Below the pieces are notes generated by a model, which had not been told where the DNA came from, searched no databases, and saw only the letters and a program-made list of their open reading frames with translations. Of a stretch of 64,000 nt of DNA, positions 24,413-42,974 are shown in pieces. This DNA is from Paremcibacter congregatus (GTDB lineage: Bacteria; Pseudomonadota; Alphaproteobacteria; Sphingomonadales; Emcibacteraceae): the NCBI RefSeq assembly GCF_006385135.1, contig NZ_CP041025.1, positions 372,001-436,000 of the forward strand, in the 5' to 3' direction. The position numbers and the translations under genes were made by a program. Positions within the stretch are counted from its first letter, which is position 1. Each line of letters begins with the position of its first letter.

Positions 24413-24592
24413 CTAAAGTTCTTCTACGTTACTATCGGAGAAGGCCCAGTCCTGCGCATTTTCCATTTCAGCCAGAAACAGATGTTCCGCGGAAACGATG
24501 GCTTCTTCTTCGCTGGCGGCGTCAACCGTGGTGACCCAATAAAAAGACCCGCGTTTCAGGTCGGCTTTCAGGGTGACGTTAAAGGTGGCCAT
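24413..24592 (-). CDS. Small conserved-looking hypothetical protein
   Basis: A 59-residue protein beginning MATFNVTLKADLKRGSFYWV and ending DWAFSDSNVEEL. An alternating strand-helix-strand pattern, DAASEEEAIVSAEHLFLAEM in the middle, resembles small proteins with a DUF-type beta-alpha-beta fold. AAGGA lies about 8 bases before the ATG. It is convergent with the lipoprotein gene. Function unknown. Confidence 0.65.
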   Translation of the reverse strand: MATFNVTLKADLKRGSFYWVTTVDAASEEEAIVSAEHLFLAEMENAQDWAFSDSNVEEL

Positions 24593-24668: not shown

Positions 24669-24705
24669 AAAAAAAAGGCGCTCCTCATAAAAATGAAGAG
24701 ACGCC
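24669..24705 (-). terminator. Terminator of the small RNA candidate
   Basis: On the minus strand GGCG, CTC and TCAT pair with ATGA, GAG and CGCC across single mismatches, then eight T (24669-24676). Confidence 0.85.
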
Positions 24706-24824
24706 AAGTCGCAAGGAGGGTTTCGATCCAAGATGAGCCGCAAATCGCAAGAACGACTCACCCGGCATAATCCGTCAGGATATGCTAGATCGGGGACCTT
24801 GGGCTGCTTAAGCCCTCATCCACC
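24669..24824 (-). ncRNA. Candidate structured small RNA of about 156 bases
   Basis: On the minus strand a promoter (24829-24857) is followed by a stretch without coding potential that ends in a strong terminator. Local stems are GGGCT/AGCCC, GCATA-TCC/GGA-T-TATGC and GAGTCG/CGGCTC, with CCAAG/CTTGG and CGATC/GATCG able to close a multi-branch core. Near the 3' end lies CCCTCCTT, complementary to a Shine-Dalgarno sequence, which could bind mRNA start sites or be masked by GAGGG near the 5' end. Length suits 6S RNA, but the shape does not look like the long 6S rod, so no family is assigned. Confidence 0.6.
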
Positions 24825-24828
24825 TGAT

Positions 24829-24857
24829 ATTCTAATTGAATAGTGAATAATAGGCAA
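24829..24857 (-). promoter_or_regulatory. Promoter of the small RNA candidate
   Basis: TTGCCT (24852-24857), exactly 17 bases, then TAGAAT (24829-24834) on the minus strand. The predicted 5' end is near 24822-24824. Confidence 0.6.
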
Positions 24858-24936
24858 ATATTATTTGTTTATCTATATTTTATGTAAATTTATACTAAAT
24901 AATAAACTATATTACCCTATAAATAGGAAATAAATA

Positions 24937-24965
24937 TTGACAAAGCGGGGTTAATAGGCTATTAT
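24937..24965 (+). promoter_or_regulatory. Near-consensus promoter upstream of the GTA cluster
   Basis: TTGACA (24937-24942), exactly 17 bases, then TATTAT (24960-24965). The predicted start is near 24972. It is divergent from the small RNA promoter across an AT-rich stretch of about 80 bases (24858-24936). Confidence 0.7.
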
Positions 24966-25027
24966 TTTTCACATGATCAAGAATTGGCTCTCGGAGAGAG
25001 GGCGTACAGACTGATTTCCTGACACAG

Positions 25028-25054
25028 GTCGCCAGATTTATGGCGGCTTTTTTT
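25028..25054 (+). terminator. Intrinsic terminator in the GTA leader (possible attenuator)
   Basis: Stem GTCGCC/GGCGGC (one T-G pair) with an 8-base loop, then seven T (25048-25054), only 17 bases before terS. Transcripts from the promoter at 24937 would end here after about 80 bases unless terminated early or antiterminated. Confidence 0.7.
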
Positions 25055-25071
25055 ATGGCGAAGGGGCATCT

Positions 25072-25515
25072 ATGGCGAAAACGACGGCATCGGGGCGCTG
25101 GTCGGCTGAAAAAGAATCAGTCTTTCTCAGTATTTTACAGCAGAGCGGTAATGTGACGGCGGCGACGGCGGCGGCGGAGCTGGACCGGTCTCAGGTCTAT
25201 CGCCGCCGGGTCGCCCACCCGGCCTTTCGCGACAAATGGCAGGCGGCGATGGATCAGGCGCTCGACCATCTGGAGGCTTATCTCTGGGACAAGGCGTTGG
25301 GCGCCACGGGACAACAGGATAGGGCAGACGGAGGCAAAGCCCCGGTGATTGATGAGAAGGTGGCGATCTTTCTGCTGAAAGCCCACCGGCCGGAAATTTT
25401 TGGCGACGGTAAGCGGCGACCAACTTCCCTCCGTAAAGGCAAAACCCTGTCCCCCCGGGCGCGGTTGCTTAAAAAGTTGGACCAAATGGGGGATCACGCC
25501 CCGACCAAAGATTGA
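25072..25515 (+). CDS. GTA/phage terminase small subunit-like protein (g1)
   Basis: A 147-residue protein at the head of the cluster, in the position of RcGTA g1. N-terminal helix-turn-helix: FLSILQQSGNVTAATAAAEL then DRSQVYRRRVAHPAFRDKW, a pattern seen in phage small terminases. The C-terminus is basic (KRRPTSLRKGKTLSPRARLL). It should recognise DNA or load the large subunit for packaging; in GTAs packaging has little sequence specificity. An AAGGGG site precedes the ATG. terL follows after 7 bases. Confidence 0.8.
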   Translation: MAKTTASGRWSAEKESVFLSILQQSGNVTAATAAAELDRSQVYRRRVAHPAFRDKWQAAMDQALDHLEAYLWDKALGATGQQDRADGGKAPVIDEKVAIFLLKAHRPEIFGDGKRRPTSLRKGKTLSPRARLLKKLDQMGDHAPTKD

Positions 25516-28549: not shown

Positions 28550-29104
28550 ATGAAAAACTCACTTTACGCCACCCCTGATATCAAGGCTGACGTCATGACC
28601 GCGCTCGGCCATTTCGCGGGCTATGCCAGCATATTTCATGTGGTCGACCGGGGTCGGGACCTGATCCTGCCCGGGGCCTTTCAACAGTCCTTAAAAGACC
28701 GGGGCGCTGCCGGGGTGAAACTTCTGTGGCAGCATGACCCGAAGGAGCCGGTCGGCGTGATTGACGAACTGCGGGAAGACGGGCGCGGGCTGTATGTCCG
28801 GGGCCGTCTGATGTTGCAGGTGGCGCGGGCGCGGGCGGCGGCGGATTTGCTTGCCGCCGGGGCGCTCGACGGCTTGTCAATCGGCTTTCACACGGTGGAA
28901 AGTGATCAAAGGTCGGACGGCGTGCGGCTGCTGCGGCGGGTGGATCTGTGGGAGATCTCCCTGGTGACCTTCCCGATGAATGAACAGGCGCGCATCTCTC
29001 ACTTCAAGTCCGCCGCGCAGCAGGCCACCGAGACCGCGGACCTTATTACGTCACTCACCCATCTTACGCAACTCATGACCCCCCTATCATCACAGAAAGG
29101 ATGA
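28550..29104 (+). CDS. HK97-family prohead maturation protease (GTA g4)
   Basis: Serine protease of 184 residues that trims the capsid protein during head maturation. Conserved parts are FAGYASIFHVVDRGRDLILPG, the catalytic His in VKLLWQHDPKEPVG and the catalytic Ser in LDGLSIGFHTVE, then WEISLVTFPMNEQARI. Complete and in frame. The capsid gene starts within its last bases. Confidence 0.93.
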   Translation: MKNSLYATPDIKADVMTALGHFAGYASIFHVVDRGRDLILPGAFQQSLKDRGAAGVKLLWQHDPKEPVGVIDELREDGRGLYVRGRLMLQVARARAAADLLAAGALDGLSIGFHTVESDQRSDGVRLLRRVDLWEISLVTFPMNEQARISHFKSAAQQATETADLITSLTHLTQLMTPLSSQKG

Positions 29105-29109
29105 CTTCC

Positions 29110-30318
29110 ATGACATTAGAGACCAAAGAGGCGCTGGAAAATCTCAGCCGCGCCTTCGAACAGTTTAAAACCACCAACGACGATCGCCTGGGCGAAATCG
29201 AACGCAAGGGCCAGGCGGACGTCGTGACCGAGGAGAAGCTCGCGCGCCTCGATCAGGAGATCCAGCGCCTGCACAATATGACCCGCAGCCTGCATATGGC
29301 GGGAGGGCGCCCCGCCCTCGACGGCAAGACGGCAGATTCCGGCCCCGACCTGCAACAGAAAGCGCAGTTCTTCGATGGTTTTATTCGTAAAGGACAGGAG
29401 ATCACGCTGGATCAGAAAGCTTTGAGCACGGCGGTAGATACCGACGGGGGTTATACGGTGCCGGTGGCGCTGGATCAGCAGATCGAGAAACGCCTGCGGG
29501 ACATATCGCCGATCCGGGCCGAGGCCCATGTGATCGCCATCGGCACGTCGCGCTATAAGAAGCTGGTCAATACCGGCGGCATGACCTCGGGCTGGGTGTC
29601 CGAGAGTGGGGCGCGGATTGAGACCGACAGCCCGAGTTTTCAGGAAATCGAACCGCCGCTCGGCGAGATTTACGCCAATCCGGCGGCGACCCAGACCATG
29701 CTGGATGACGCCTTCTTCAATGTGGAAAGCTGGTTGTCCGAGGAGCTGGCGGAAGAGTTTGCCCAGCAGGAAAACGCCGCCTTCGTTACGGGCGACGGGG
29801 TCAACAAGCCGAAAGGTTTCCTCACCTACGCCCTGTCGGCCAATGATGACGGCAGCCGGGCCTTCGGCGAGATCGAGACGCTGGCCACCGGGGTGGCGGG
29901 TAACTGGGCGGCAACGGACCCGTCAGATATCCTCGTCGATATGGTGCATGCGCTGAAAAGCGGGTACCGGGCCGAGGCGAAATTCTACATGAACACCGGC
30001 CTGCTCAGTGAAATCCGCAAATTCAAGGATGCCGACGGTCATTATCTCTGGCGGCCGGGCCTGGAAAGCGGCGCGGCGGCAACCTTGCTCGGCTATCCGG
30101 TGGTCGAGGTGGCCGAGATGCCGAACCGGGCGGTGTTCTCCCTGTCGCTGTGTTTCGCCAATATGAAGCGGGCCTATAGCGTCACCGACCGCATGGGAAC
30201 CCGGATATTGCGCGATCCCTATTCCCACAAGCCCTATGTGCATTTCTACACCACCAAACGGGTCGGTGGCGCGGTGACCAATGATCAGGCGATCAAGCTG
30301 CTGCAGTTCAGCGCTTAA
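29110..30318 (+). CDS. HK97-family phage major capsid protein (GTA g5)
   Basis: Main head protein, about 402 residues. The N-terminal delta domain is a coiled coil (LETKEALENLSRAFEQFK, DQEIQRLHNMTRSL), removed by the protease; the fold proper begins near LSTAVDTDGGYTVPVALDQQ and includes WVSESGARIETDSPSF, EEFAQQENAAFVTGDGVNKP and the C-terminal YSHKPYVHFYTTKRVGGAV. Start chosen at the second ATG (29110), which is 8 bases from AAGGA; 29101 is possible. A strong terminator follows the stop. Confidence 0.95.
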   Translation: MTLETKEALENLSRAFEQFKTTNDDRLGEIERKGQADVVTEEKLARLDQEIQRLHNMTRSLHMAGGRPALDGKTADSGPDLQQKAQFFDGFIRKGQEITLDQKALSTAVDTDGGYTVPVALDQQIEKRLRDISPIRAEAHVIAIGTSRYKKLVNTGGMTSGWVSESGARIETDSPSFQEIEPPLGEIYANPAATQTMLDDAFFNVESWLSEELAEEFAQQENAAFVTGDGVNKPKGFLTYALSANDDGSRAFGEIETLATGVAGNWAATDPSDILVDMVHALKSGYRAEAKFYMNTGLLSEIRKFKDADGHYLWRPGLESGAAATLLGYPVVEVAEMPNRAVFSLSLCFANMKRAYSVTDRMGTRILRDPYSHKPYVHFYTTKRVGGAVTNDQAIKLLQFSA

Positions 30319-30336: not shown

Positions 30337-30374
30337 GGAGAAGGCGGCGGGTGACTGCCGTCTTCTCCTTTTTT
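30337..30374 (+). terminator. Terminator inside the GTA cluster, after the capsid gene
   Basis: GGAGAAG and CGGC pair with GCCG and CTTCTCC around an 8-base loop with one G-T pair, followed by six T (30369-30374). It lies just before the ribosome-binding site of the connector gene. Partial readthrough would give more capsid mRNA than tail mRNA. Confidence 0.8.
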
Positions 30375-37235: not shown

Positions 37236-37919
37236 TTATTTTTTCGCCGCAGCCTTTTTAGGCGCTGCTTTTTTCGCCGCAGGTTTCTTGGCGGGTGTTT
37301 TCTTCGGGGCGGTTTTTTTCGGCGCCGCTTTTGTGTCTTCCGCCGGGGCGGCGTCTTCCACAGGGGCTTCCGGCTCAACTTCTTTCCACTGATCAGGATA
37401 GAGACGCTGATGGATCTGGTTTACCCGATTGCTGACATCGGCGATGGCTTTCAACAGCGCATCGAGATTATAGCTAACACCACGGAAGGCGTAAATTTTT
37501 GTGGTCGGATCAAAGGCGCGGAAGATATTCTTCGGCTCCACATCCTTATGGCGACTGTTGGCGATATCGCCTATGAAATCATAGAGGATATATTGATCCT
37601 TGGACTGGGCGATCCACTGGTCATTGGCTTCATCGGCCTGATCGACCAGGGCCAGAATATTTTCGTTATTCAACGGATATTTTTCCGGCAGCTCAAGAAC
37701 CTGGCGCAGGCCGGCGGCCCGTTCCTTGCCTTTTTTACGCGGGGACCACAACATGCGGGCCAGTTGGTTGCTGCCTAGCATGATATTCTGCAGGCCGAAA
37801 AACGCGCCGACGGCGGCCTGGTTTTCCATTGACTGGTTCAGAATATCCACGCTCGCCTCGATAAAGCGGCACTGGTTTCTTAATTCGTGAATATGCAACC
37901 CAATTACATTCATGTCCAT
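37236..37919 (-). CDS. Antisense gene in the GTA cluster: helical domain with histone-H1-like tail
   Basis: A protein of about 227 residues on the strand opposite to all other GTA genes. Residues 1-180 are helical: FFGLQNIMLGSNQLARMLW, then LPEKYPLNNENILALVDQAD and FDPTTKIYAFRGVSYNLDAL, an arrangement like HEPN-type four-helix proteins but without a clear R-x4-6-H motif. The C-terminal 45 residues are a Lys/Ala/Pro-rich tail (APKKTPAKKPAAKKAAPKKA) like AlgP or bacterial H1-like proteins, expected to bind DNA. Start chosen at the ATG at 37919 (AAGGA 10 bases upstream). It may be a cargo or regulatory gene. No function is assigned. Confidence 0.8.
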   Translation of the reverse strand: MDMNVIGLHIHELRNQCRFIEASVDILNQSMENQAAVGAFFGLQNIMLGSNQLARMLWSPRKKGKERAAGLRQVLELPEKYPLNNENILALVDQADEANDQWIAQSKDQYILYDFIGDIANSRHKDVEPKNIFRAFDPTTKIYAFRGVSYNLDALLKAIADVSNRVNQIHQRLYPDQWKEVEPEAPVEDAAPAEDTKAAPKKTAPKKTPAKKPAAKKAAPKKAAAKK

Positions 37920-42474: not shown

Positions 42475-42500
42475 AACTTAATCTGACAGCATAATGAAAA

Positions 42501-42530
42501 AGGCGTCCCTGAGGGGGCGCCTTTTTTTTT
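42501..42530 (+). terminator. Rho-independent terminator after ompA
   Basis: Stem AGGCG and CCC with GGG and CGCCT, short GA-containing loop, then a run of nine T (42522-42530). Confidence 0.9.
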
Positions 42531-42549
42531 GCGTTTGGGACAGAGAGGA

Positions 42550-42849
42550 TCAGCCGAAGAGCTCGCCGAGCTTCAGGGCGAGACCCATATCGCCGTCAAT
42601 CTTCAGTTTACCCATCATAAAGGCCATCTGGGGATTGAGGGAGCCGTCGATCAGGCCTTCGAAATTATCTTCACTCAGGGTCAGGGTGACATCGGCATCA
42701 AGATCGTCATTGCTGACGGTAGGTGGATTGGTCGTGCCATCAATGAAAATAAAGCCGTCACCTTTCAGGTCAATTTTAACTTTCTTGCCGTTGGCGTCCA
42801 TGGCGTCTGTTTTGCCGCGGATGGTGGAGGTAAGATCTTCGAGGCTCAT
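42550..42849 (-). CDS. SCP2 sterol-binding domain protein
   Basis: A 99-residue single SCP2 domain, a small lipid-binding fold: KVKIDLKGDGFIFIDGTTNP, then DADVTLTLSEDNFEGLIDGS, MAFMMGKLKIDGDMGLALKL. Typical length for alphaproteobacterial stand-alone members. Probably carries or senses hydrophobic ligands; ligand unknown. Single gene convergent with ompA. Confidence 0.92.
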   Translation of the reverse strand: MSLEDLTSTIRGKTDAMDANGKKVKIDLKGDGFIFIDGTTNPPTVSNDDLDADVTLTLSEDNFEGLIDGSLNPQMAFMMGKLKIDGDMGLALKLGELFG

Positions 42850-42974
42850 GTCTCATTCCTTTATGTGGTTCGGGGCCTTATCAGGTTATGCGGCCTTTAA
42901 CAGTGGGTGCGGTTAAAATCTAACATACGTTTGATTTTATTGCCAGAGGTCATTTAGACCCTGCCGGGAGGCAG

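Follow-up and report, generated by a model that had tools for sequence, protein, structure and literature searches.

Directly upstream of terS in the window (the whole 64,000-nucleotide stretch analysed here, G000:C1:372001-436000, from a genome of one contig, 4.19 Mb), a near-consensus promoter is followed by an intrinsic terminator, and this order of elements is found before terS in all 14 Emcibacteraceae leaders examined. We consider it probable that this is an RcGTA-type late promoter with an attenuated leader, under promoter-loaded processive antitermination of the kind known from lambda Q, AlpA and GafZ. Since GTA production kills the producing cell, how the cluster stays off is a central question. 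The genes after the leader form a complete RcGTA-type cluster. The first structural gene is terS (terminase small subunit, 25072-25515, + strand; PHROG 4044, E 6e-12), followed by terL (PF03237/PF17289), portal, DUF6127, protease and capsid, in that order, and the head-tail genes are accompanied by GTA tail genes that include Rcc01695- and Rcc01698-type proteins. Three open reading frames in or beside the cluster (37410-37778, 42494-42916 and 24413-24592) have no family in Pfam or PHROGs.

The promoter (+ strand) consists of a -35 hexamer TTGACA (24937-24942), a 17 bp spacer (24943-24959; AAAGCGGGGTTAATAGG in the window) and a -10 hexamer TATTAT (24960-24965). It matches the consensus at 11/12 positions and is the top promoter-like site between 22 and 40 kb. 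The pattern TTGACA-N17-TANNNT is not significant by itself (one match in the window against 0.22 expected; 21% of shuffles). The leader terminator (25026-25054, + strand) is made up of a 9-bp stem, a 6-base loop and T7, with stem arms AGGTCGCCA and TGGCGGCTT at 25026-25034 and 25041-25049 and the T7 at 25048-25054. It ends 17 bases 5′ of the ATG of terS at 25072, and the AAGGGG Shine-Dalgarno sequence sits 3′ of it. The hairpin has a predicted energy of -13.8 kcal/mol (z -4.4, equalled in 0/200 shuffles); the 9-bp stem is only moderately strong. The positions that the first-pass annotation had given for the promoter, stem, T-run and 17-base gap were all confirmed.

By itself the promoter match could be due to chance; the decisive support for the leader arrangement comes from comparing leaders. 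We aligned 14, the window's and 13 others of the family, including two further genera (G016, G017). As in the Q and AlpA systems, a terminator lies between promoter and first gene in every leader, compared with 34/560 and 14/210 (6-7%) of dinucleotide shuffles. TTGACA is invariant in all 14 (2.0 bits/position), the spacing to the -10 is equal throughout, and the -10 region, which reads TAGTCT or TAGTAT in the relatives, carries 1.6 bits/position. The spacer always starts with the conserved AAAGCGGGGT (first nine bases, 1.73 bits/position), again consistent with Q and AlpA logic. The first ~20 transcribed bases are also conserved (CATGATCAAGAATTGGCTC at 24972-24990, + strand; consensus CATGGTCnGAAATTGGCTC; 1.62 bits/position), and the spacer element and this downstream block combined are single copy in the genome. 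Just downstream the information drops to 0.61 bits/position and the middle of the leader is free in sequence and in length (97-154 nt, approximately from start to terS), until a T-run recurs 19-25 bases 5′ of the alignment's terS start in all 14. Across the eight different stem sequences that share one length, 95.8% of cells are paired and five are double-changed; two stem pairs change on both sides, and the covariation score was reached by no shuffle. Eight related sequences are few, so this covariation is supportive, not conclusive alone.

A second intrinsic terminator (30337-30374, + strand; 14-bp stem and T6, -27.9 kcal/mol, z -5.4) follows closely on the major capsid gene (29101-30318). 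Its position could be compared in five clusters, the window's and those of the four relatives whose contig reaches far enough (L098, L099, L102, L103), and a terminator occurs at the equivalent place in each of the four, each with different stem sequences. Two conserved intrinsic terminators in one operon fit a factor that would travel with polymerase. The first-pass annotation had predicted an attenuated leader, to be overcome by antitermination or readthrough. The conservation, the covariation in the leader terminator and the terminator after the capsid gene agree with this prediction. The annotation had not listed the second terminator, the conserved spacer and 5′ block, or a palindrome at 24916-24927.

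From the promoter, spacer, 5′ block and two terminators we infer the following course of events. The near-consensus sigma-70 promoter would make a leader RNA of ~80 nt, with its predicted 5′ end near 24972, that ends at the intrinsic terminator before terS, so that only a modified RNA polymerase would go on to transcribe the operon. The conserved spacer between the two hexamers is most likely bound by a GTA-specific factor; this factor would join polymerase slowed at the conserved transcript start and then travel along, overriding the terminator in the leader and also the one behind the capsid gene. Such a factor would not be a GafZ, GafY, DUF6362 or Phage_antitermQ protein detectable by profile searches. 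The 5′ block is not conserved as a reading frame; it may be a nucleic-acid element, possibly a promoter-proximal pause site. The relatives do not all share a -10-like or elemental-pause match in it. A boxA-like reading of GGCTCTTGA in the block was dropped because conservation stops past GGCTC.

Since it is the promoter and the transcript start that are conserved, and the leader body is not, we favour a factor that loads at the promoter over an RNA switch or a peptide. Attenuation might be RNA-based: whether a terminator or an antiterminator fold forms would depend on a ligand, an RNA-binding protein or the position of a ribosome, and the small extra GGG...CCC hairpin found before the terminator in genus relatives (G001, G002, G004, G005, G008-G013, G015), although not in the window, would suit such a device. 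We nevertheless judge it very improbable: between the 5′ block and the terminator the leader is unconserved in sequence and length, 24972-25020 folds like shuffles (z -0.53), an Rfam search of window and leader returned no match, the reading frame is not conserved, and the second terminator, conserved within the operon, could not be bypassed by local attenuation. A leaderless leader peptide that couples translation to attenuation, as the first-pass annotation had conceived, is barely credible. Its frame does exist (ATG...TGA, 24973-25014, 13 sense codons), with the ATG kept in 11/14 leaders, but the other three have lost the start codon, peptide lengths, stop positions and phase to terS differ, two frames run on beyond the terminator, and changes at the variable sites of the block are not synonymous but alter amino acids.

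The promoter and terminator could instead be an independent small-RNA gene, with GTA transcription beginning elsewhere. A promoter, a body of ~80 nt and a terminator are indeed the anatomy of such a gene, and a divergent structured ncRNA-like unit adjoins the leader. We consider this quite improbable, because the body is the least conserved part and the promoter-terminator unit always lies 5′ of terS, even where the neighbouring genes are others (G004, G012, G013); moreover, the 17 bp from terminator to terS are too little for another promoter. The divergent unit itself, a putative structured ncRNA (24669-24855, - strand; promoter-like TTTACA/AATAAT, fold z -4.4), has a terminator with T8, is conserved in the genus and has no Rfam family. 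It can be parted from the GTA, since its match in G012 and G013 and the GTA leader there are found on separate contigs.

In lambdoid phages the intrinsic terminator tR′ precedes the late genes. The pR′/Q system further resembles the arrangement favoured here in its sigma-70 promoter, its short leader, a factor site in the spacer and a transcript-start element able to hold polymerase (PMC6606751); in contrast, the Emcibacteraceae have no Phage_antitermQ homologue over cut-off and no clear -10-like pause sequence in all relatives. With AlpA of Pseudomonas aeruginosa the leader shares a promoter followed by an intrinsic terminator (tB) directly before the first gene, alpB, of the lethal operon, and a factor site between -35 and -10 (PMC7969949), whereas the AlpA motif GGGACGN5GGTA is absent from the window spacer. 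By its position, the conserved spacer is a candidate antiterminator loading site like ZBE, QBE and ABE (PMC11150451, PMC6606751, PMC7969949).

PgtaT of Caulobacter crescentus, which involves GafY, IHF and GafZ, is likewise the single promoter of an RcGTA-type cluster, with a key element between -35 and -10 and operon-internal terminators that need processive antitermination (PMC11150451). GafZ was shown in 2024 to be the antiterminator of this GTA, loading between -35 and -10 (PMC11150451). The first-pass annotation had given known RcGTA control as working through GafA at the promoter and had taken an attenuated leader for a different layer; the former needs correcting, and the latter layer was already known through GafZ, so that antitermination as such is not a new form of GTA control. 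What differs here is that the terminator stands before terS and a further one behind the capsid gene, whereas in Caulobacter it follows the first gene; that the -35 is TTGACA instead of the degenerate AATCAT that needs GafY and IHF; and that the spacer lacks the palindromic ZBE GCGCCCG-CTGGCGC and holds another conserved element (PMC11150451). GafY and GafZ, present in Caulobacter, are not detectable in the window's family. When the degenerate Caulobacter -35 was swapped for a near-consensus one, the promoter became GafYZ-independent, though weaker (PMC11150451). By this comparison the near-consensus -35 of the window should need no activator, and the chief obstacle would be termination, as at lambda pR′ or at the alpB leader under AlpA (PMC7969949); a match to the consensus does not by itself tell how strong an alphaproteobacterial promoter is.

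In sister families of the order, regulators lie beside the cluster. gafZ is directly upstream of terS in f2, f3, f4, f7 and f8, and at nearly all loci, where the contig allows, a repressor stands beside it that we call RogA-like because it has an N-terminal HTH and neighbours gafZ; RogA has an S24-like plan (PMC9632790). The rogA-like gene and gafZ are divergent neighbours directly 5′ of terS at L032-L038, L040, L044 and L106-L109, in contrast to gafYZ of Caulobacter, which is located elsewhere. A DnaA-C protein resembling GafY was looked for in three of the rogA-gafZ genomes (G032, G034, G037) and not found. The terS promoters of the sister families mostly follow one plan, with a palindrome ACCAAATnGGT, TTGACA or TTGACT, a spacer equal or similar to AGCGTCACG, an extended -10 and conservation at the transcript start. 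This plan is like that of the Emcibacteraceae, and several of the families have a leader terminator (f4 3/3, f7 3/5, f2 1/4, f8 0/2, f3 0/1); the differences are that regulators are adjacent and the spacer is AGCGTCACG in the sister cassette, whereas the Emcibacteraceae lack the regulators and have AAAGCGGGG. As some GafZ-bearing relatives have no leader terminator (L032, L037, L040, L041, L042), it is not essential to the GafZ system. In f5, a different repressor and a DUF6362-type protein precede terS in several genomes, and all ten upstream regions (counted per region, the clusters being GTA or prophage) have a terminator. At L126, L128, L129, L134 and L135 the DUF6362-type protein is encoded upstream of terS, in the place that GafZ has in other families, and in most cases its neighbour is a phage-type repressor (S24-like or HTH). 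We regard DUF6362 as a candidate for either an antiterminator or a late activator.

Profile searches of the window's family gave a different picture from the sister families, absence meaning absence at the sensitivity of those searches. Some assemblies of the family are incomplete drafts, but the nearly complete ones (G000, G013, G016, G017) give concordant results. GafZ is represented by DUF6456 (PF20057), which is also the C-terminal part of GafA (PMC9638019, PMC11150451). Its profile gave a best E of 0.82 in G000 and nothing over cut-off in the family; as a control, it gave E 1e-38 to 1e-51 in the sister families and was also positive in Caulobacter. A second GafZ profile (A1) had no credible match in the family. 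Weak DUF6456 matches in G009, G011, G014 and G015 are put down to chance, judged from two inspected loci, one with ribosomal-protein-like and enoyl-CoA-hydratase-like genes, the other with a sigma-factor-like gene. In the search for GafY, the only DnaA-C match over cut-off was DnaA itself, at that model's own sensitivity; at a second DnaA-C match in G000 (2316425) there is no GafY-like gene. RogA of the sister-family type was absent by profile search, the matches in G006 and G018 being ordinary phage-type repressors beside recombinase-like or other genes. DUF6362 gave nothing convincing in GTA-bearing Emcibacteraceae, and the Phage_antitermQ profile, which stands for another family than lambda-Q PF03589, nothing over cut-off in eight genomes. 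No viral contig searched carried the leader; the sole close viral terS (L146, IMGVR_UViG_2786546679_000002) is identical to the window's own, the cluster being catalogued in IMG/VR as an uncultivated virus, and the retrieved stretch starts exactly at terS.

What appears to be new, on these genome comparisons, is that a family keeps the leader without detectable GafZ, RogA, GafY, DUF6362 or Phage_antitermQ, while its sister families carry regulators upstream of terS. The Emcibacteraceae may have a diverged GafZ; the altered spacer would suit divergence of the factor as well as its replacement.

That no antiterminator was found by these searches also suits another account, in which there is no dedicated one: the terminator would lower basal expression of a lethal cluster, induction would take place at the promoter through a repressor or an activator, and transcription would leak through normally. 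A repressor could act at the palindrome CCTATAAATAGG just 5′ of the -35 (24916-24927; 1.3 bits/position in the leader alignment), a possible operator. A palindrome or repeat is kept there in nearly all relatives, as CCTATTnATAGGAA or, in G004, G012 and G013, as a direct repeat of ATAGG-type half-sites. In GafZ-bearing families ACCAAATnGGT takes its place and recurs between rogA and gafZ. We regard induction at the promoter as rather unlikely, for it leaves unexplained the conserved spacer, the conserved transcript start and two position-conserved terminators per operon. At ≤2 mismatches the palindrome turned up only at GTA promoters and at dispersed positions, with no candidate regulator next to any of them; its use as a pointer to the regulator's own promoter was abandoned, the extra sites falling inside or near unrelated genes.

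With promoter-loaded antitermination as the preferred reading, we tentatively suggest that the GTA of the Emcibacteraceae is run by a novel class of processive antiterminator that has replaced both GafZ and its promoter element, in a promoter-terminator switch fixed across the order whose loading factors (GafZ, perhaps DUF6362, and this novel one) have been exchanged. If the antitermination reading is right, domesticated phage clusters would retain their late-gene switch (start, stop, antiterminate) despite loss or replacement of the regulator. DUF6362 would then be a testable antiterminator candidate in another family, and the Emcibacteraceae leader, being short and open to genetic manipulation, a reporter with which to hunt for the missing factor.
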